Origin: Candidatus Baldrarchaeota archaeon
GTDB taxonomy: Archaea > Asgardarchaeota > Baldrarchaeia > Baldrarchaeales > DXJG01
Length of the DNA: 5,165 nucleotides
Assembly (NCBI GenBank): GCA_030587435.1
Contig: JAUQZC010000179.1
Coordinates: 1 to 5,165, forward strand
Direction: 5' to 3'
Shown here in pieces: positions 1 through 5,165 of this stretch; the stretch's first letter is position 1; each line of letters begins with the position of its first letter. Position numbers and translations under genes: made by a program. The notes below the pieces were generated by a model. The model worked only from the letters and a program-made list of their open reading frames with translations, was not told the DNA's origin and searched no databases.

Positions 1-524
1 TTAACTAACGCTTCAAACATCTCAACAAGCCTTTTCTCTTCATCATGATATAATCTACAACCAGGCTGCAAAGCCACTCTCAAATTCTTGAGAGGTTTTA
101 CAACAGCCTTAGAAATAGTATCCAAACCTATTTCATCATGTAAAACTTCTATAGCGTGAAGCACTTCCACCGTACCTTTAAATTCCCTGCCAATTGTCTG
201 CAAATCACGATTAACCTTGTCTTTAAGCTCCTTATCATTCTTCAAGCTTTCATTAACCTTGTTAAGCGTATCAAAACAACCATTACAAATAGTCATAATG
301 TTTGCATTCAATTTCTCTGCTATTGAAATGTTTCTGGCTGCAATGTGAATCCACAAGTTCTCGTCAAATTGTCTACTAATTTCAGGATCTGAGCAACAAG
401 TTGCTCCTTCCATATCAACCAGTTCTACACCTAACTTCTCAAATGATTTCCTTGCTGCAGCTTCCACATGAAATTGGCTGGCAGGTATGGTGCAGCCGAG
501 GAAAAACGCAAATCTTTTCTCCAT
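1..524 (-). CDS. hdrB: Heterodisulfide reductase subunit B (HdrB)-like protein, 3' end cut off by window edge
   Basis: This is the N-terminal 174 residues of an HdrB-like protein; the family is usually a little under 300 residues. HdrB holds two CCG domains that bind non-cubane [4Fe-4S] clusters, which cleave the CoM-S-S-CoB disulfide in methanogens; relatives act on other or unknown thiol/disulfide substrates. The first CCG domain is complete: FLGCT with Cys11, the pair Cys43-Cys44 and CNGC with Cys80 and Cys83, at spacings matching the methanogen enzyme as I remember it. Cys156 in QPGC opens the second CCG domain, whose remainder lies off the left edge. The start is the ATG at 524, preceded by GGTGA at 531-535 with six bases of spacing. 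The gene follows the HdrC-like gene by 14 bases, so it is the last visible gene of the operon. Family assignment is firm. The physiological substrate is not known, and no HdrA is visible. Confidence 0.88.
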   Translation of the reverse strand, partial: MEKRFAFFLGCTIPASQFHVEAAARKSFEKLGVELVDMEGATCCSDPEISRQFDENLWIHIAARNISIAEKLNANIMTICNGCFDTLNKVNESLKNDKELKDKVNRDLQTIGREFKGTVEVLHAIEVLHDEIGLDTISKAVVKPLKNLRVALQPGCRLYHDEEKRLVEMFEALV

Positions 525-538
525 CTCTCTTCACCAAC

Positions 539-805
539 TTAAACTAGTTTTTTCTTTTTCTCTAAACCAATTAACTTAGATATCTCTTCAAGTTCTTTTA
601 CAGCTTCCTTAAATTTCCAAGCTGTGGGTGGAACAGATTCTAATCCTATTTCCTCTCGTTCATCAGCAGTGAAATCTGAAAACTGCGGTAAATGAGCGCT
701 AGTTAAAAGTGCTCTAATGGCTCCAGCATAGGTTTCCGGGAATTTTTTTAAAGGCTTACGTAAAGGATAGAGATCTCTATTTTCCTCCAATAACCTCCAC
801 CCCAT
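539..805 (-). CDS. HdrC-like protein reduced to the C-terminal helical domain, without Fe-S motifs
   Basis: This 88-residue protein contains no cysteine. Its second half (around residues 50-80: EREEIGLESVPPTAWKFKEA and then a run ending in LIGLEK) resembles the end of HdrC, where a LGL-x-PPT-x-(K/Y)-x-EA pattern precedes the C-terminal helix. Ordinary HdrC is roughly twice as long and begins with two CxxCxxCxxxCP ferredoxin motifs, all missing here. The gene lies between a four-cluster ferredoxin and hdrB, where hdrC is expected. Its ATG at 805 lies inside the ferredoxin gene, giving a 29-base overlap in a different frame. That ATG has no clear Shine-Dalgarno site, and a stop codon lies four codons upstream in the same frame. 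A TTG at 790 is an alternative start. I infer that it serves as an adaptor between HdrB and the adjacent ferredoxin. It could also be a decayed or frameshifted remnant. Confidence 0.65.
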   Translation of the reverse strand: MGWRLLEENRDLYPLRKPLKKFPETYAGAIRALLTSAHLPQFSDFTADEREEIGLESVPPTAWKFKEAVKELEEISKLIGLEKKKKLV

Positions 806-1295
806 ACAGTTCTTTTAACATTCTTCTTGCTTCCTCTCTCGTAACAAGCTGCAATGCCCCAGTAGTACAATACTTTACGCACTTAGGATCTATGGTGCCA
901 GTTTCTTTATCGTAGCAGAGATCACATTTCCATGAAACCTTAGTTTCAAAGTCAAAGCGTGGATTAGATAGCGGACAAGCGTAATTGCAAGATCGGCATC
1001 CAATGCATTTAAGACTATCAATAAACACCCAACCTGTTTCTTCGTCCTTTGTTATTGCGTCTACTGGACACGCAGCTGCGCAAACAGGTTCTTCGCAATG
1101 GGAACATCTAATGGATTCAAAAACCCCAGGGTTATCAGGATCTTCCACAACCTGATTGCGGGATTTATCGTAACTCAAAACACCAAAATGGTGAAAAGAG
1201 CAAACTATCATGCAAACAGTACACCCAGAACACTTATTTCTATTATGAACAATTACATAGGGACCTTTTTCCTTAACAAGCTTTAAAACACTCAT
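777..1295 (-). CDS. Four-cluster [4Fe-4S] ferredoxin, HycB/DmsB-like electron-transfer subunit
   Basis: This 172-residue protein has exactly 16 cysteines in four groups: 22/25/28/32 (CxxCxxCxxxC), 64/67/72/76 (CxxCxxxxCxxxCP), 97/100/103/107 (CxxCxxCxxxCP) and 124/127/139/143 (CxxC-x11-CxxxC). This is the layout of the HycB/DmsB/CooF family, soluble subunits that carry electrons between a catalytic partner and a second redox protein. There is no signal peptide or membrane segment, so it should act in the cytoplasm. The ATG at 1295 follows GGAGG with eight bases of spacing, and that GGAGG overlaps the TAG stop of the small-subunit gene upstream. Its end overlaps the HdrC-like gene by 29 bases. 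By position it probably wires the hydrogenase-like module to the HdrB side. It could instead serve an unseen formate dehydrogenase or aldehyde oxidoreductase. Confidence 0.85.
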   Translation of the reverse strand: MSVLKLVKEKGPYVIVHNRNKCSGCTVCMIVCSFHHFGVLSYDKSRNQVVEDPDNPGVFESIRCSHCEEPVCAAACPVDAITKDEETGWVFIDSLKCIGCRSCNYACPLSNPRFDFETKVSWKCDLCYDKETGTIDPKCVKYCTTGALQLVTREEARRMLKELYGVEVIGGK

Positions 1296-1307
1296 TTTGT
1301 TTTCCTC

Positions 1308-1751
1308 CTAATCTTTTGCTAAAGCCTTTTGTATACATTGAGCAATACCCACAATAATTGCCTCAGGTTTAGGTGGACAACCAGGAACATATACATCTAC
1401 GGGTATTATTTTGTCTACGGGACCACCAAAAGTGTAGGTAGGATTATCATCGTCCCTTAGAAAAACTCCTCCAGTTGTTGCGCAAGCACCCACAGCAACA
1501 ACTCCTTTTGGTTCTGTCATTTGATTGTATATTCTCTTAATTACGGGTACCATTGCTTTAGGAACTATACCCGTTACAACCATGATATCTGCATACCTTG
1601 GATTATTAGTTAATACGATTCCGATTCTTTCTACATCGTATCTAGGGGTTAATGCTGCTGCTACTTCAATATCACATCCATTACATCCACCGCAATGTGC
1701 ATGAAACAGCCAAGGACTTCGAGTTCTAGCCCACTTCTTCCAACCCAACAC
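1308..1751 (-). CDS. [NiFe]-hydrogenase group 4 small subunit / NuoB-family protein (HycG/EchC/MbhJ type)
   Basis: This 147-residue protein carries the one [4Fe-4S] cluster that lies next to the catalytic site in group 4 hydrogenases and at the N2 position in complex I. The ligands are visible: HCGGCNGCDIE (Cys23 and Cys26), GAC at Cys90 and VPGCPPKPE at Cys125. The CNGCDIE form, rather than the adjacent Cys-Cys pair of NuoB, points to the Ech/Hyc/Mbh hydrogenase side of the family. Length is normal and no ligand is missing. The start is a GTG at 1751, read from AGGAGG with five bases of spacing; that site overlaps the TAG stop of the upstream ferredoxin gene. The large subunit with which it should pair is not in the window. 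The family is certain. Whether the complex makes hydrogen or performs Fpo-like electron transfer cannot be told without the large subunit. Confidence 0.9.
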   Translation of the reverse strand: MLGWKKWARTRSPWLFHAHCGGCNGCDIEVAAALTPRYDVERIGIVLTNNPRYADIMVVTGIVPKAMVPVIKRIYNQMTEPKGVVAVGACATTGGVFLRDDDNPTYTFGGPVDKIIPVDVYVPGCPPKPEAIIVGIAQCIQKALAKD

Positions 1752-1760
1752 GTTTTCCTC

Positions 1761-2333
1761 CTAAATATACTTTCTAGTATGCAAATTTAATCTTATAGCG
1801 AGTTTTTTCCTACAATCAGGACAATAATGTGAAGCAACTTCCACATCATGTAAAATTTGCTCCTTTAAAGCAGAATCTTTAATTTTTTCCTTAATCCTAT
1901 CAATAATTGCCTCAACTTGCCTATCCGGCATGAAATAGGTACCACAATTCTCACATTTTCTCAAGTCGAGAGAAATTGTTGAAACAGCTGAATCAACTTG
2001 ATCGGTTACCATGTTCCAGTTCTGAGAAAGCTTGATCGCCTCTTCTTGCGGACATATTAATTGACATCTTCCACAGTAAATACACCTACCAAGATACACC
2101 GTTAAAGTTCTCTTGCCGTCATCATCCACATATTTAATTGCTCCAGCAGAACACTGCATACTACATGCTGCGCAACCCACACATTTTTCCTCATCATATT
2201 CAGGTTGTCCTCGAAACATCGGCGCAACAAAAGCAGGCGGACCAAAGGGAAAGTCAACTGTTACACATTTTCCAAGTCCAGATAGTGAGGTTTTCAAGAG
2301 TTTACGTATTGCTCCAACCCTTTTTTCCTTCAT
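1761..2333 (-). CDS. HycF/HyfH/NuoI-type ferredoxin subunit with cysteine-pair C-terminal tail
   Basis: This is the bridging iron-sulfur subunit that passes electrons to the hydrogenase small subunit on the cytoplasmic face of the membrane. Counted from the ATG used here (190 residues), two ferredoxin motifs are seen at Cys51/54/57/61 and Cys84/87/90/94, with FRGQPEYDEEKC before the first, as in HycF. The first motif ends CSAG and lacks the usual proline after its fourth cysteine. The C-terminal half has CENC (127, 130) and CPDC (171, 174), a probable zinc- or metal-binding pair also found in HycF/HyfH and absent from NuoI. The gene follows the membrane-subunit gene almost directly. An in-frame TTG at 2342, touching the preceding TAG stop, is an alternative start giving 193 residues; I prefer the ATG at 2333. 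It ends nine bases before the small-subunit gene, and its stop codon forms part of that gene's ribosome site. Confidence 0.87.
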   Translation of the reverse strand: MKEKRVGAIRKLLKTSLSGLGKCVTVDFPFGPPAFVAPMFRGQPEYDEEKCVGCAACSMQCSAGAIKYVDDDGKRTLTVYLGRCIYCGRCQLICPQEEAIKLSQNWNMVTDQVDSAVSTISLDLRKCENCGTYFMPDRQVEAIIDRIKEKIKDSALKEQILHDVEVASHYCPDCRKKLAIRLNLHTRKYI

Positions 2334-2342
2334 TTTAATCAA

Positions 2343-3365
2343 CTACCCAATAATTTGTGCAAATGGAATATCAAACCAAGGCATGTAAAGTAGGTATGCC
2401 CAAATTATAGATAAAATCGAGAACACAAGAGGATATTTTATGAACCAAGCAAAAGCATCACTAGGTCTATATCTAGGCATGAGAACGGCGATTAACGCCC
2501 ATATAAAAACTATGATAGCTGTTAGCACCAAGAAGTAAATCACTGTTAGCCATGTGAAGCTTGTCATCGCTCCCCCGAGTAAAAAGTCTACTATTATTGT
2601 AGAAATCAAGAAAAATTTAATGTATCCTTCAATTTTGAATAGTCCAAGAAGCCAACCGCTATACTCGGCGAGAGGACCGTAGACAATTTCCTGTTCTGCC
2701 TCAACAATGTCAAAAGGCTTTACATGTATTTTCCCCAGTACAGAGAGAAACAACGCAATTGCAGCAAACGGATTAAGAAACAAAAACCAGGCAGGAAGGT
2801 CTATACCAAAAACGTTCAGTCTATGTGTCGTTTGATAATCTACTATTCCCTGTACACTTAGAACCGCATGTTTGACATGTCCAGTCATTAAAGCGATACT
2901 TAACAAACTTAATATAAAGGGCACTTCGTATGCAAGCAGCAACAAAATTTCTCTTTTACTTCCAACAACTCCATAAGGGGAACCACTAGAGGCTCCAGCA
3001 ATAACATAGGCAACCGGAGGGCCGTATAATAGGTAAATCAAGAGTAATACACCAATTTCGTGGTTTGAAAGAGGCGAAAATCCGGCAACTGGAACAAGCC
3101 AGAAAGTAGCTATGGTACATGCTAAGGCTAGGAACGGCGCAAAAAAGAAAAGCTTCTTTTTAGCTGTCCCTGGTACTTTGGGTTTTTTGCTTAAAAGCTT
3201 TAGAACGTCAGCAAATACCTGATACCATCGCGCAGGGAAATAAGGTCCTCTTCTCATCTGCATTCTAGCATATAACTTTCTGAATTCGTAGAAAAATATG
3301 CAACCTAGTGTGAATGCAACTATGGGTATTAATATAAATTCTAATATGGTCCAGACGAACGTCAT
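2343..3365 (-). CDS. NuoH/HycD/EchB-family membrane subunit
   Basis: This 340-residue integral membrane protein anchors the hydrophilic redox subunits and forms the start of the ion-translocating path in complex I-like enzymes and group 4 hydrogenases. About eight hydrophobic segments are visible, at roughly 4-25, 72-93, 104-124, 139-160, 190-210, 250-265, 270-295 and 310-328. Family motifs are RRGP at 38-41, followed by the amphipathic FADVLKLL stretch; YEVPF at 146-150; PFDIVEAEQEIVYG at 217-230; and EYSGW at 234-238. The acidic residues (E147, E222, E224, E226, E234, E246) that line the quinone-like cavity or proton path in the family are kept. Length is normal. The ATG at 3365 has GGGAGAG about nine bases before it. 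It lies 39 bases after the small membrane-protein gene and runs straight into the HycF-like gene. Sequence alone does not settle HycD versus EchB, MbhM or FpoH. Confidence 0.9.
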   Translation of the reverse strand: MTFVWTILEFILIPIVAFTLGCIFFYEFRKLYARMQMRRGPYFPARWYQVFADVLKLLSKKPKVPGTAKKKLFFFAPFLALACTIATFWLVPVAGFSPLSNHEIGVLLLIYLLYGPPVAYVIAGASSGSPYGVVGSKREILLLLAYEVPFILSLLSIALMTGHVKHAVLSVQGIVDYQTTHRLNVFGIDLPAWFLFLNPFAAIALFLSVLGKIHVKPFDIVEAEQEIVYGPLAEYSGWLLGLFKIEGYIKFFLISTIIVDFLLGGAMTSFTWLTVIYFLVLTAIIVFIWALIAVLMPRYRPSDAFAWFIKYPLVFSILSIIWAYLLYMPWFDIPFAQIIG

Positions 3366-3404
3366 ATTTTTTTCTCTCCCTTTCTTGGTGTTAAATTTGC
3401 ATAA

Positions 3405-3728
3405 TCATTTGCTTCCTTTTTCTTTCTTTTTTCTTGGGCTTAATAATTCTTCATCACTTATATATGGTGGAGCAGCATAACCTCCGGTAAAAATATCTTC
3501 TGCACGGACTTTTTTAGGGAAGAGAGATGGAATAGCTAGGTATGAAGCTATAGCAACAATCGAAACAATTAAGACTTCGATGAAAATCTCCTCGTAAAGG
3601 AAAAATCCACCATAGCAAGCTCTACACAAAAATATCCCGATTAAACCAATAATAAGCAATATTAACGTAGTGATAAGGAGAACTTTTCCAATTTTCTTGG
3701 ATTTAGATGAAGTTACGTTTTCCGTCAT
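3405..3728 (-). CDS. Small two-helix membrane protein, first gene of the Hdr/hydrogenase-like operon, function unknown
   Basis: This 107-residue protein has a lysine-rich N-terminus, two hydrophobic segments (about 14-35 and 47-69) separated by a short loop containing Cys35 and Cys39, and a charged C-terminal tail that is probably cytoplasmic and ends in a lysine-rich run. The tail motif AEDIFTGGYAAPP (76-88) vaguely recalls the cytosolic tail of NuoL/HyfB-type antiporter subunits, but this is from memory and weak. I do not recognise a family. Expression support is good: GGTGA at 3736-3740 lies seven bases before the ATG at 3728, and a TATA box lies about 65 bases upstream of the ATG. As first gene of the operon, 39 bases before the NuoH-like gene, it is probably a small accessory membrane subunit of the same complex. 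It might alternatively be the leftover end of a lost antiporter-like gene. Confidence 0.75.
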   Translation of the reverse strand: MTENVTSSKSKKIGKVLLITTLILLIIGLIGIFLCRACYGGFFLYEEIFIEVLIVSIVAIASYLAIPSLFPKKVRAEDIFTGGYAAPPYISDEELLSPRKKKEKGSK

Positions 3729-4053
3729 TTGAATGTCACCAACATTTAACCCCTAATCCATCATAACTGTCCTCAATAAAACAGAAATTCCTATATAAAT
3801 TTTTTAATCCAGAGGGACAGCTGCATGGAAACTATATTTACTGATTAATAGACTTTTATTGAAGTTTGTAAAAAATTGTGCGCAACTAATTTCGATAGTG
3901 TAAATTATTTAAAAAATACAAAAATGGCTAACATTATGCATAAATTTTTGCAAAATGAATAGATTGCGTAGTTGAAATACGCCGCTGAGAAATTTTGGAC
4001 ACGTTTAAAAGTTATGGTTTTTAAAAGTAAATATTTGAAGTTTAGTATAAAAA
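3729..4053. other. AT-rich intergenic gap without a gene
   Basis: These 325 bases lie between the operon and the nitroreductase gene. Apart from the operon promoter and leader at the left end I see no coding potential: open stretches on either strand are very short, for example an ATG frame of only 12 codons on the plus strand around 3924. A T5 run on the minus strand directly after the nitroreductase stop (4049-4053) may act as a weak archaeal terminator. A perfect 10-base palindrome, TTATGCATAA, lies at 3934-3943. No tRNA fold or direct repeat was found by eye. Confidence 0.6.
3791..3810 (-). promoter_or_regulatory. TATA/BRE promoter of the hydrogenase-like/Hdr operon
   Basis: On the minus strand the sequence reads GGATTAAAAA followed by ATTTATATAG, a good archaeal TATA box with a purine-rich BRE before it. 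A start of transcription near 3770 would leave a leader of about 40 bases containing the GGTGA site before the ATG at 3728. No comparable promoter was seen between the downstream genes, whose gaps are 39 bases or less, so they are probably transcribed together. The call is from pattern only. Confidence 0.6.
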
Positions 4054-4560
4054 TTAAGATATTTTTTCTCCGTATTTTTCATGATAAGTTAATTCTTTTA
4101 GTGGTTTTCTTGACGGAGGGTTAGGGATCCTTTTAGGGTATCCTAACGGTATAACTGTAAGCAAATGAAGTTCTTTAGGTATATTTAGCAGTTCTTTTGC
4201 TTTATCTCTATCCATGGTTCCTATCCAACATGTTCCAAGCCCTAGTTCCCAAGCTGCAAGCATCAAATTTTGAACCGCGCATGAACCATCAATTACATGT
4301 GCGTAAGATTTTCGGGGATCAGTAACAACAGCAATTACCACGGGAGCATCGGCTATAAACCAACCAAACTTAGCAAGCTTAGCCAACTTTTTCTTAGTTT
4401 CCTGATCCCTTATAACAATGAATTCCCATGGCTGACTATTCTTACTACTAGGAGCCCAACGAGCAGCATCCAAAACCTCCATTACCAACTCACCAGGTAC
4501 ATCTTTTTCCAGAAATTCCCTTACTGACCTTCTCTCCCTAATAACTTTGATAACGGACAT
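4054..4560 (-). CDS. Nitroreductase-family FMN-dependent oxidoreductase
   Basis: This 168-residue cytoplasmic flavoprotein belongs to the nitroreductase superfamily, whose members bind FMN as dimers and use NAD(P)H or other donors to reduce varied substrates; the natural substrate cannot be read from sequence. Family motifs are clear: RRSVREF at 10-16 (FMN phosphate and ribityl contact), APSSKNSQPWEF at 36-47, DGSCAVQNLMLAAWELGLGT at 91-110 at the dimer and flavin interface, and IPLGYP at 137-142. It is a compact form, common in archaea and anaerobes, and looks intact. The ATG at 4560 follows GGAGG at 4568-4572 with seven bases of spacing. It stands alone, separated by about 325 bases from the operon downstream and divergent from the decayed radical SAM gene, so it is probably an independent transcription unit. 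Confidence 0.9.
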   Translation of the reverse strand: MSVIKVIRERRSVREFLEKDVPGELVMEVLDAARWAPSSKNSQPWEFIVIRDQETKKKLAKLAKFGWFIADAPVVIAVVTDPRKSYAHVIDGSCAVQNLMLAAWELGLGTCWIGTMDRDKAKELLNIPKELHLLTVIPLGYPKRIPNPPSRKPLKELTYHEKYGEKIS

Positions 4561-4587
4561 GATTCAACCTCCATTACGAACAAACAG

Positions 4588-4609
4588 TTTTTAAATAATT
4601 TTTAAATGG
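4588..4609 (-). promoter_or_regulatory. Candidate TATA region for the nitroreductase gene
   Basis: The minus strand holds two tandem ATTTAAAAA-type boxes, at about 4598-4607 and 4588-4596. The distal one would place the transcription start near 4578, leaving an 18-base leader that includes the GGAGG site. The nearer one would start inside that site, so the distal one is more likely used. Confidence 0.5.
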
Positions 4610-4688
4610 TTTCTTTTTCTATATTTATCGGCCAATATATTAATTTCGGAAAATTGCTTCAAATAAGAGTCGCATCTGGGACTTCAGT

Positions 4689-4954
4689 ATGGTGGATGTG
4701 GTTCTTATTAATCCACTAGATATTCATTCAAAGTTTGCTTTGCTTTCGGTTTCCTAGCGAAACAAGAGAAACTATAAAGGTCACCATAAAATTTGCTAAG
4801 AAGATAGACCCGGACTATGCGGTATTTTCATTAGCAACACCCTACCTGGAACCAGATTTTACGAATTCTGCAAAAACTCGGTTTAATCAAGGTAAAGGAC
4901 TGGATACATTACAACCTAATTACACCAATAATAGAAACAGCGTATTTCGATTAA
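4689..4954 (+). pseudogene. Decayed B12-binding radical SAM protein gene: internal deletion plus frameshifts
   Basis: Family resemblance continues across several frames, which no single open frame explains. From the ATG at 4689 one frame reads MVDVVLINPLDIHSKFA, like the N-terminus of a cobalamin-binding radical SAM protein (NPP replaced by NPL), then stops at 4755. Near 4733 the resemblance jumps to CFAFGFPSETRETIK, a segment normally hundreds of residues later in the radical SAM domain, and continues with FAKKIDPDYAVFSLATPY. Past 4845 a second frame gives PGTRFYEFCK, and past 4877 a third gives LGLIKVKDWIHYNLITPIIETAYF, stopping at 4952-4954. Each frame change is explained by one lost base (in GGTTT-CCT, TAC-CTGGA and the A5 run at 4872-4876). 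The CxxxCxxC cluster site and most of the B12 domain are gone, so the product cannot work. An 86-codon frame from a TTG at 4735 is a by-product of this decay. Confidence 0.75.
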
Positions 4955-5017
4955 TTATCCTACAAATCAAATACGTCGTTAACTCGCTAAAGTAAGCGTA
5001 GCCGCTCTTTACTCCCA

Positions 5018-5048
5018 ATCTTTGTTTCATTTTTCTATGCTATTTTTA
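5018..5048 (+). terminator. T-rich tract, possible archaeal terminator
   Basis: The plus strand after the decayed gene has several T runs (TTTG, TTTC, TTTTTC, TATTTTTA) within about 30 bases and no strong GC hairpin, as is common for archaeal termination. It could be the old terminator of the radical SAM gene. The call rests on composition alone in an AT-rich region. Confidence 0.3.
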
Positions 5049-5049
5049 A

Positions 5050-5091
5050 TAGGTTTTTAGGTGATGGATATATCAATTTCTTAAAAACCTA
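5050..5091. repeat. Inverted repeat with 10-base arms, possible operator
   Basis: TAGGTTTTTA at 5050-5059 is matched exactly by its reverse complement TAAAAACCTA at 5082-5091, with 22 bases between. It lies directly before the candidate TATA box at about 5093-5102. Arms spaced this way just upstream of a TATA box suit a dimeric regulator site, for example for an activator or repressor of the gene at the right edge. A hairpin in the RNA is possible but would be AT-rich and weak. Confidence 0.45.
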
Positions 5092-5104
5092 AATATTTAA
5101 AACT
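5091..5104 (+). promoter_or_regulatory. Candidate TATA box for the gene at the right edge
   Basis: The plus strand reads AAATATTTAAAAC, a TATA-like element. Transcription would begin near 5125, giving a leader of about 35 bases before the ATG at 5159. Background AT content makes chance matches common, so the support is mainly the agreement of spacing with the downstream GAGGT and ATG. Confidence 0.4.
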
Positions 5105-5158
5105 TAATTACAAAAAGGATAAGTAATTCCAAAGCGGTTACCAACAATTAAGAGGTTC

Positions 5159-5165
5159 ATGCGAT
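5159..5165 (+). CDS. Possible start of a plus-strand gene cut by the right edge
   Basis: Only ATG CGA T is visible. GAGGT at 5152-5156 lies two bases before the ATG, closer than usual, and a TATA-like element lies about 60 bases upstream. Nothing can be said about the product, and the real start could lie outside the window. Confidence 0.25.

Follow-up and report, generated by a model that had tools for sequence, protein, structure and literature searches.

The DNA analysed here (the window) is the 5.2-kb contig JAUQZC010000179.1 of a Candidatus Baldrarchaeota archaeon, belonging to an Asgard phylum (PMC9723677). Its main feature is an operon at positions 1-3728, on the minus strand and read right to left, in which genes of a membrane hydrogenase are followed by genes related to hdrC and hdrB. 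Genes for NuoH/HycD-, HycF-, HycG- and HycB-like proteins, an HdrC tail and HdrB were all present on that strand in one run, as a preliminary description of this DNA had listed them; to these six we added a small membrane gene, conserved in relatives, with which the operon begins (Table 1). The intergenic gaps between the seven genes were 0 to 39 bp, and the sole overlap, of 29 bp, was that between the ferredoxin and HdrC-tail genes, which are read in different frames. The HycF/NuoI-type protein carried two [4Fe-4S] motifs and an extra CxxC...CxxC tail.

Table 1. Genes of the hydrogenase-HdrB operon, in order of reading
Gene product	Position	Strand	Size and evidence
Small membrane subunit (first gene of operon)	3405..3728	-	107 aa; two hydrophobic stretches, judged by eye
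NuoH/HycD/MbhM-type membrane subunit	2343..3365	-	340 aa; Pfam NADHdh, E 4.5e-65
HycF/NuoI-type subunit	1761..2342	-	193 aa; hydrogenase 4 subunit H (HycF-type) model, E 5.6e-35
HycG/NuoB/MbhJ-type hydrogenase small subunit	1308..1751	-	147 aa; Oxidored_q6, E 4.2e-32
HycB/DmsB-like ferredoxin	777..1295	-	172 aa; Fer4_11, E 1.7e-23; Cys count, family alignment
Stand-alone HdrC C-terminal domain	539..805	-	88 aa, 0 Cys; TIGR03290, E 2.2e-5
HdrB, truncated by window edge	1..524	-	first 174 codons; TIGR03288, E 2.2e-53
NuoCD/HycE-type catalytic subunit	L001 8904-10571; L002 11648-13333		next gene after hdrB, outside window

The closest matches to the window were loci L001 and L002, from two Baldrarchaeota metagenome-assembled genomes (MAGs), with a DNA identity of 96.7% over 4.9 kb and 80.7% over 4.6 kb, respectively. 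A window of just 5.2 kb could be an assembly artefact or a chimera, but the gene order was identical in these two separate MAGs (in L002 on a 254-kb contig), which already refutes such a join and leaves it a negligible probability. The scores against the named Pfam families exceeded the curated cut-offs, while those against the NCBIfam models of the HycF, HdrC and HdrB types fell under theirs, as did that of the full-length HdrB of L002 (253.5 bits versus 345). The proteins of these three types are therefore taken as homologues and not as certified equivalogs.

Because the contig stops inside hdrB, the large subunit of the hydrogenase is out of view in the window. In both L001 and L002, the gene directly after hdrB encodes a fused NuoC-NuoD protein of the HycE type (555 and 561 aa, respectively), which in L002 showed the Pfam domains Complex1_30kDa, Complex1_49kDa and NiFeSe_Hases; with this gene, the operon of L002 (7569-13333) counts eight genes. 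Both Ni-binding CxxC pairs were intact in the two proteins (RVCGIC; DPCYAC or DPCYSC), and the tail past the second motif was 23 to 28 aa long, compared with 32 in HycE. The nearest solved relatives were HycE (7z0s, 278 bits) and the large subunit of the membrane-bound hydrogenase MBH (6cfw, 222 bits), with complex I behind. HypD and a HycI-family protein were found in both Baldrarchaeota genomes. It had been suggested earlier that the large subunit is encoded elsewhere or that the Ni-site role was dropped, and a search for HycE/NuoD and its four Ni cysteines had been proposed as a check; run in the two relatives, this search ruled out both suggestions, since NuoCD lies next to hdrB and has RVCGIC and DPCY[A/S]CTDR. 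A NuoD-like large subunit with both CxxC pairs (in L001 and L002, from a gene beyond the window) and NuoB-, NuoI- and NuoH-like partners, the set that marks a group 4 [NiFe]-hydrogenase, were thus all found. A further NuoCD-like protein, of 666 aa and with an additional N-terminal part, is encoded at L088 960-2960 in Baldrarchaeota genome G002.

The HycB-like ferredoxin contained exactly 16 Cys, corresponding to four [4Fe-4S] motifs with four Cys per cluster, and the product of the following gene contained none. When the profile of this second protein, the HdrC tail, was compared with the PDB, solely HdrC chains rose above noise (five sequences, matched within residues 111-183 with E values from 4.1e-10 to 2.6e-5; the next match had 0.22). 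A single-chain HdrC has two [4Fe-4S] motifs and a C-terminal helical domain, whereas here a ferredoxin and a Cys-free domain are encoded by separate genes. HdrC is therefore split, with the four-cluster ferredoxin in place of its two-cluster N-terminal half and the HdrB-side domain encoded separately. The earlier label of an HdrC-like tail holds as to the relationship with HdrC, and is corrected to a separate C-terminal domain of HdrC without Fe-S ligands. A frameshifted end of the ferredoxin was ruled out, since the tail is a separate open reading frame (ORF) in relatives (overlapping the ferredoxin in L005 and L012 and lying 30 bp past it in L006). AlphaFold gave the tail a predicted local distance difference test score of 60 from an input of 11 rows and of 68 when 46 rows were used, and seven of the eight Foldseek matches of the model were chains of Hdr complexes (HdrC by chain letters), none with an E value below 0.9; the structure model only leans in the same direction as the sequence evidence.

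The part of HdrB within the window had the first CCG motif intact (C11, C43-C44, C80xxC83). Full-length HdrB of the relatives was 290-291 aa long and carried both CCG motifs, with CC at 43 and 190 and CxxC at 80 and 227 in L001 and L002. The protein matched HdrB of known complexes (8rvu_b, E 3.7e-64, with Cys positions aligned; 5odc, E 4.3e-64). The pattern in HdrB of L008 and L021 reads CC rather than CxxC at the last position.

We then determined how widely HdrB accompanies such a hydrogenase. Eighty loci were gathered with the ferredoxin as bait and scored for neighbours (79 rows, as L058 has no ferredoxin ORF over the size limit), and 46 of them plus the window were drawn in detail. HdrB lay directly downstream of the ferredoxin in 35 of the 80 loci; of the 38 closest ones, 34 had it there. 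Two of the remaining four (L019, L024) break off within 400 bp, and the other two (L025, L034) show a ferredoxin of the same family and then an antiporter match where HdrB would be. Among the 35 HdrB loci, 31 had NuoD within range; the other four (L003, L004, L035, L044) have no more than 1508 bp of sequence past the ferredoxin. Two forms were distinguished. Form A, seen in 13 loci (Asgard, Culexarchaea, Methanomethylicota and one Bathyarchaeote), has the HdrC tail; form B, seen in 21 loci (Bathyarchaea, Hadarchaea and others), has a separate NuoC and a NuoB/ferredoxin fusion; L044 was assigned to neither. In a tree of 47 HdrB proteins (49 listed, less two duplicate rows), the 35 hydrogenase-linked HdrBs formed one clade (100/98), apart from the HdrBs of HdrABC clusters, including that of the separate HdrABC in the same Baldrarchaeal genomes. 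Form A did not fall strictly on one side of a branch, since L044 (a long branch, at a contig end) fell within it. The single clade argues for long shared inheritance rather than chance neighbourhood, and thus for a true link of HdrB to the hydrogenase across archaeal phyla. The comparison of gene neighbourhoods asked for earlier thereby bore out the joining of an Ech/Hyc-type arm to HdrB through a HycB-like ferredoxin as a conserved arrangement.

Form B itself looks like a soluble hydrogenase-HdrB operon of Bathyarchaea and Hadarchaea, in the order ferredoxin, NuoC, HdrB, NuoD, NuoB/ferredoxin fusion (L011, L013-L018, L020-L023, L026, L028-L033, L035, L036, L038). NuoH was near in 0 of these 21 loci, some of which end within 4 kb. 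In six rows (L014-L016, L021, L022, L029), the second Ni motif is DRCISCTNR instead of DPCxxCTDR.

A conventional ferredoxin-linked Ech/Hyc hydrogenase could also lie beside hdr genes that serve a separate HdrABC, a case named in the preliminary description as one that would speak against the coupling. Separate HdrC-HdrB-HdrA and complex-I-like hydrogenase clusters do exist in both Baldrarchaeota genomes, and an HdrB-less operon is known to us from Halobacteriota (L195: ferredoxin, small transmembrane protein, NuoCD, NuoH, NuoI, NuoB). Yet hdrB and the hdrC tail sit within the hydrogenase operon, between the ferredoxin and NuoCD genes, and so the coupling stands; the recurrence of HdrB after the ferredoxin in the closest loci and the clade of its own formed by HdrBs of this type argue in the same direction. 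Moreover, a survey of 227 genomes from the phylum to which G001 belongs (presumably the Asgard archaea) clearly separated the stand-alone HdrC tail from ordinary HdrC ends: the tail profile, partly built from the same genomes, matched 149 of them, and the stand-alone tail (at least 113 bits; next score 52) was found in 10. We consider this alternative very improbable. The L195 operon (2108-6481) has no HdrB, HdrC tail or antiporter match beside its hydrogenase genes. In two Hermodarchaeota loci (L007 8611-9891, L158 10883-12163), the operon is immediately preceded by a gene encoding another hydrogenase large subunit, of the PF00374 type and 426 aa (Pfam on L007).

Hydrogenases of this kind have been described before. 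PMC9723716 (2022) proposes HdrB-interacting group 4 hydrogenases in Methanomethylicia (Ehd), Culexarchaeia (Ehe), Methanocellales (Drh) and Nezhaarchaeia (Ehg), and PMC8407382 reports hdrB2 within an fpo operon of one Bathyarchaeia family. The earlier view of an uncommon arrangement is tempered accordingly, although no report of a hydrogenase-HdrB complex in Asgard archaea was found in the open-access literature searched. As in those enzymes, [NiFe]-hydrogenase genes and HdrB (with HdrC) stand in one cluster in Baldrarchaeota. In a NuoCD tree of 49 rows (the row set of the present analysis, not that of PMC9723716), form A, including L005 and L009, and the Drh-like rows formed one clade (100/98). 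By these features, the operon is a predicted Asgard representative of a published enzyme kind, in which the Ni site is intact, HdrC is split and an antiporter gene is lacking from the operon.

The likeness to Ehd and Ehe lies in the same core modules in one operon, and the loci on their side, L009 (Methanomethylicota) and L005 (Culexmicrobium), share both the NuoD clade and the hydrogenase-linked HdrB clade with Baldrarchaea. However, Ehd and Ehe are described with an antiporter subunit in PMC9723716, and L009 has an antiporter match nearby; the Baldrarchaeal operon has none, which sets it apart from Ehd and Ehe proper and agrees with Drh proper. According to the same source, Ehe also has GcvH, SdhA, CdhA and HdrA2B2C2, which the Baldrarchaeal operon lacks, and the gene order is different. 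Compared with Hyc (formate hydrogenlyase), with which it shares HycF, HycG, HycD and HycB counterparts besides the resemblance of its NuoCD to the HycE and MBH large subunits, the operon has HdrB and the HdrC tail in place of formate dehydrogenase and no HycC-like antiporter. Compared with MvhADG-HdrABC, whose HdrB (8rvu, 5odc) is clearly homologous, it lacks the flavin subunit HdrA and MvhD, has a split HdrC, and contains a hydrogenase of the group 4 type.

For a comparison with Drh, we searched 392 genomes from the same phylum as an Archaeoglobus locus and fetched 14 stretches. Four Halobacteriota loci (L190, L192, L193, L203), which we take to be the Drh of Methanocellales, contained ferredoxin, HdrC tail, HdrB, NuoCD, NuoH, NuoI and NuoB; none of these four stretches gave an antiporter match, a lack they share with the Baldrarchaeal operon. 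An antiporter-less form is thus not wholly new. In the NuoCD tree, three Drh-like rows made a branch of their own (100/100; 100/98 with L195) outside the Baldrarchaea group, in which Baldrarchaea stood with Odinarchaea, Culexarchaea, Methanomethylicota and one Bathyarchaeote (84/95), that is, with antiporter-bearing forms of the Ehd/Ehe type. Since Baldrarchaea group with these rows and not with the Drh-like branch, the antiporter appears to have been lost (or gained) more than once, with the branching inside the 84/95 group not fixed. A firm reading of antiporter loss from the first trees, in which Baldrarchaea were nested (97/98, 100/98), was softened by wider sampling. The NuoD trees omit fragments below 300 aa, and two of them also L158_10883 (group 3-type), L047 and L088; L193 is absent from the 49-row tree because its first motif, RICGFC, missed the search pattern.

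The HycC-like antiporter noted earlier as missing from its expected place was indeed absent from the operon in L001 and L002, and all PF00361 antiporter-domain hits in the two genomes (3/3 and 2/2) lay in the different, complex-I-like cluster. The gene content of the latter is like that of a cluster described for Freyarchaeia and Atabeyarchaeia in PMC11291895. Relatives with an antiporter-like gene in the cluster were L006, L007, L009, L012, L027 and L037 (Pfam-checked for L006, L007 and L012); L005 had none in view, but its contig ends inside NuoH. Energy-converting hydrogenases of the Ech/Hyc/MBH type have at least one antiporter-like subunit; the Baldrarchaeal operon has none and is not classed with them. 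With no antiporter gene, the predicted complex probably translocates few or no ions. The small membrane subunit has a C-terminal motif, IF-GG-A-PPYI--E, and Glu51 in its second hydrophobic stretch, both common to relatives, and related small ORFs precede the antiporter or NuoCD gene in L005, L006, L009 and L012 and occur also in L193 and L195. Its identification as NuoK was not established, the likeness being weak (best PDB E 0.19; hhalign probability 8.5%).

Outside the operon, a nitroreductase-family flavoprotein is encoded upstream on the same strand (4054-4560), and an ORF closely resembling it lies upstream in L001 and L002 too. Window positions 1-4940 match L001 8555-3614 and positions 4933-5165 resume at L001 3346-3113, so that the window lacks some 267 bp present in L001. 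A scan for sigma-70 promoters and terminators gave no excess over shuffled sequences; the sigma-70 model is not apt for archaea.

The alpha subunit of methyl-coenzyme M reductase (MCR) was found in neither Baldrarchaeota genome, in a search whose control was positive in two methanogens and which did not extend to coenzyme M and coenzyme B (CoM/CoB) synthesis; CoM-S-S-CoB, on which Drh is proposed to act, is therefore probably not the disulfide substrate here. In both genomes, the separate HdrC-HdrB-HdrA cluster (L121 4352-11056, L123 2018-6363) faces a gene for a GcvH-like lipoyl carrier; at L121, where HdrA2-like and HdrC identities were confirmed, the cluster follows a molybdopterin oxidoreductase gene. 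The GcvH-like protein keeps the invariant ESxK lysine, lipoate-ligase-family genes are present in both genomes, and HdrA and GcvH adjoin the hydrogenase loci of L005 (Culexarchaeal) and L009 (Methanomethylicota). Given these neighbourhoods, a lipoyl carrier used in common by both Hdr systems is a fair guess; GcvH with a lipoyl disulfide has also been suggested as a possible partner of HdrB-interacting hydrogenases (PMC9723716).

Considering the gene content, ligand motifs, conserved synteny and shared HdrB clade, we infer, with somewhat more confidence than doubt, that the product of the operon is a group 4 [NiFe]-hydrogenase:disulfide oxidoreductase, anchored in the membrane and probably pumping little or nothing. 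In the complex so predicted, the Ni site of the NuoCD/HycE-like subunit would cleave or form H2, and electrons would reach HdrB by way of HycG/NuoB, HycF/NuoI and the HycB-like ferredoxin with its four clusters. Held by the separate HdrC tail, HdrB would make or break a disulfide at two non-cubane clusters, while NuoH and the small membrane protein would anchor the complex. Either direction would be possible, and the disulfide is perhaps the lipoyl group of the GcvH-like carrier encoded beside the separate HdrABC. The potential of H2 is about -414 mV under standard conditions and less negative at low H2, that of lipoamide about -300 mV, and that of CoM-S-S-CoB about -140 mV. With a lipoyl disulfide, there would thus be little energy to spare for pumping and the reaction could run either way, which would fit the missing antiporter. 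As an argument this is weak, since the Drh-like enzymes, probably acting on CoM-S-S-CoB, are also without an antiporter.

Several observations weigh against this interpretation. The absences of antiporter and MCR are provisional, as they come from two genomes whose completeness is not stated. GcvH-like genes are not near the operon in L001 and L002 and are near some relatives only (8 of the 79 loci scored), and the Drh-like genomes have Mvh-like genes next door, so that the substrate there could well be CoM-S-S-CoB. The window NuoH also retains all seven widely conserved acidic residues (D53, E147, D219, E222, E224, E226 and E234, aligning with E. coli NuoH D63, E157, D213, E216, E218, E220 and E228), as would be expected of a protein still engaged in energy transduction; three Drh-like NuoHs without an antiporter keep the same acids, bar one Glu-to-Asp change. 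The same complex might still be an ion pump, in line with the ion coupling suggested in the preliminary description, if NuoH and the small subunit were enough to link H+ or Na+ movement to the flow of electrons. The small subunit has a membrane Glu that was kept in all eight usable sequences (not counting the L192 ORF, which is in the wrong frame; L190 and L203 were outside the comparison) and that aligns with the key Glu of NuoK. However, the likeness to NuoK is weak, the seven columns were chosen because at least 9 of the 11 NuoH-like proteins aligned have an acidic residue there, and the acids may be retained for structure. The missing antiporter of Drh is, moreover, read as no ion gradient in PMC9723716, where Lyu and Lu 2015 are given as the source for Drh. 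We regard such a pump as rather unlikely.

Antiporter subunits could instead be supplied in trans by the complex-I-like hydrogenase cluster: both genomes encode one with antiporter genes, and close relatives of the operon have an antiporter of their own. The antiporter genes of that cluster, though, have NuoB, C, D and H genes of their own close by, and no case of a shared module was seen; we consider such borrowing quite improbable. A broader proposal is that a stripped-down relative of complex I, consisting of NuoH and one small subunit with a conserved membrane Glu and having no antiporter-like subunit, still couples H2/disulfide electron flow to ion movement, perhaps with a lipoyl-carrier disulfide in non-methanogenic Asgard, and arose more than once (in Baldrarchaea and Drh-type Halobacteriota); we hold it to be unlikely. 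Our preference stays with a hydrogenase:disulfide oxidoreductase that pumps little or nothing.

The enzyme kind being already known, what the operon adds is its Asgard setting, into which HdrB-linked hydrogenases are extended by the 10 of 227 genomes with a stand-alone HdrC tail, and a set of testable questions. Without MCR found in the two Baldrarchaeota genomes, the identity of the physiological disulfide becomes one of them. In this family, HdrC consists of a ferredoxin with four clusters and a docking domain encoded apart from it. Finally, NuoH can persist with its acidic residues even where the antiporter is lacking, and such operons are useful for studying what part of a complex-I-like enzyme is responsible for ion movement.

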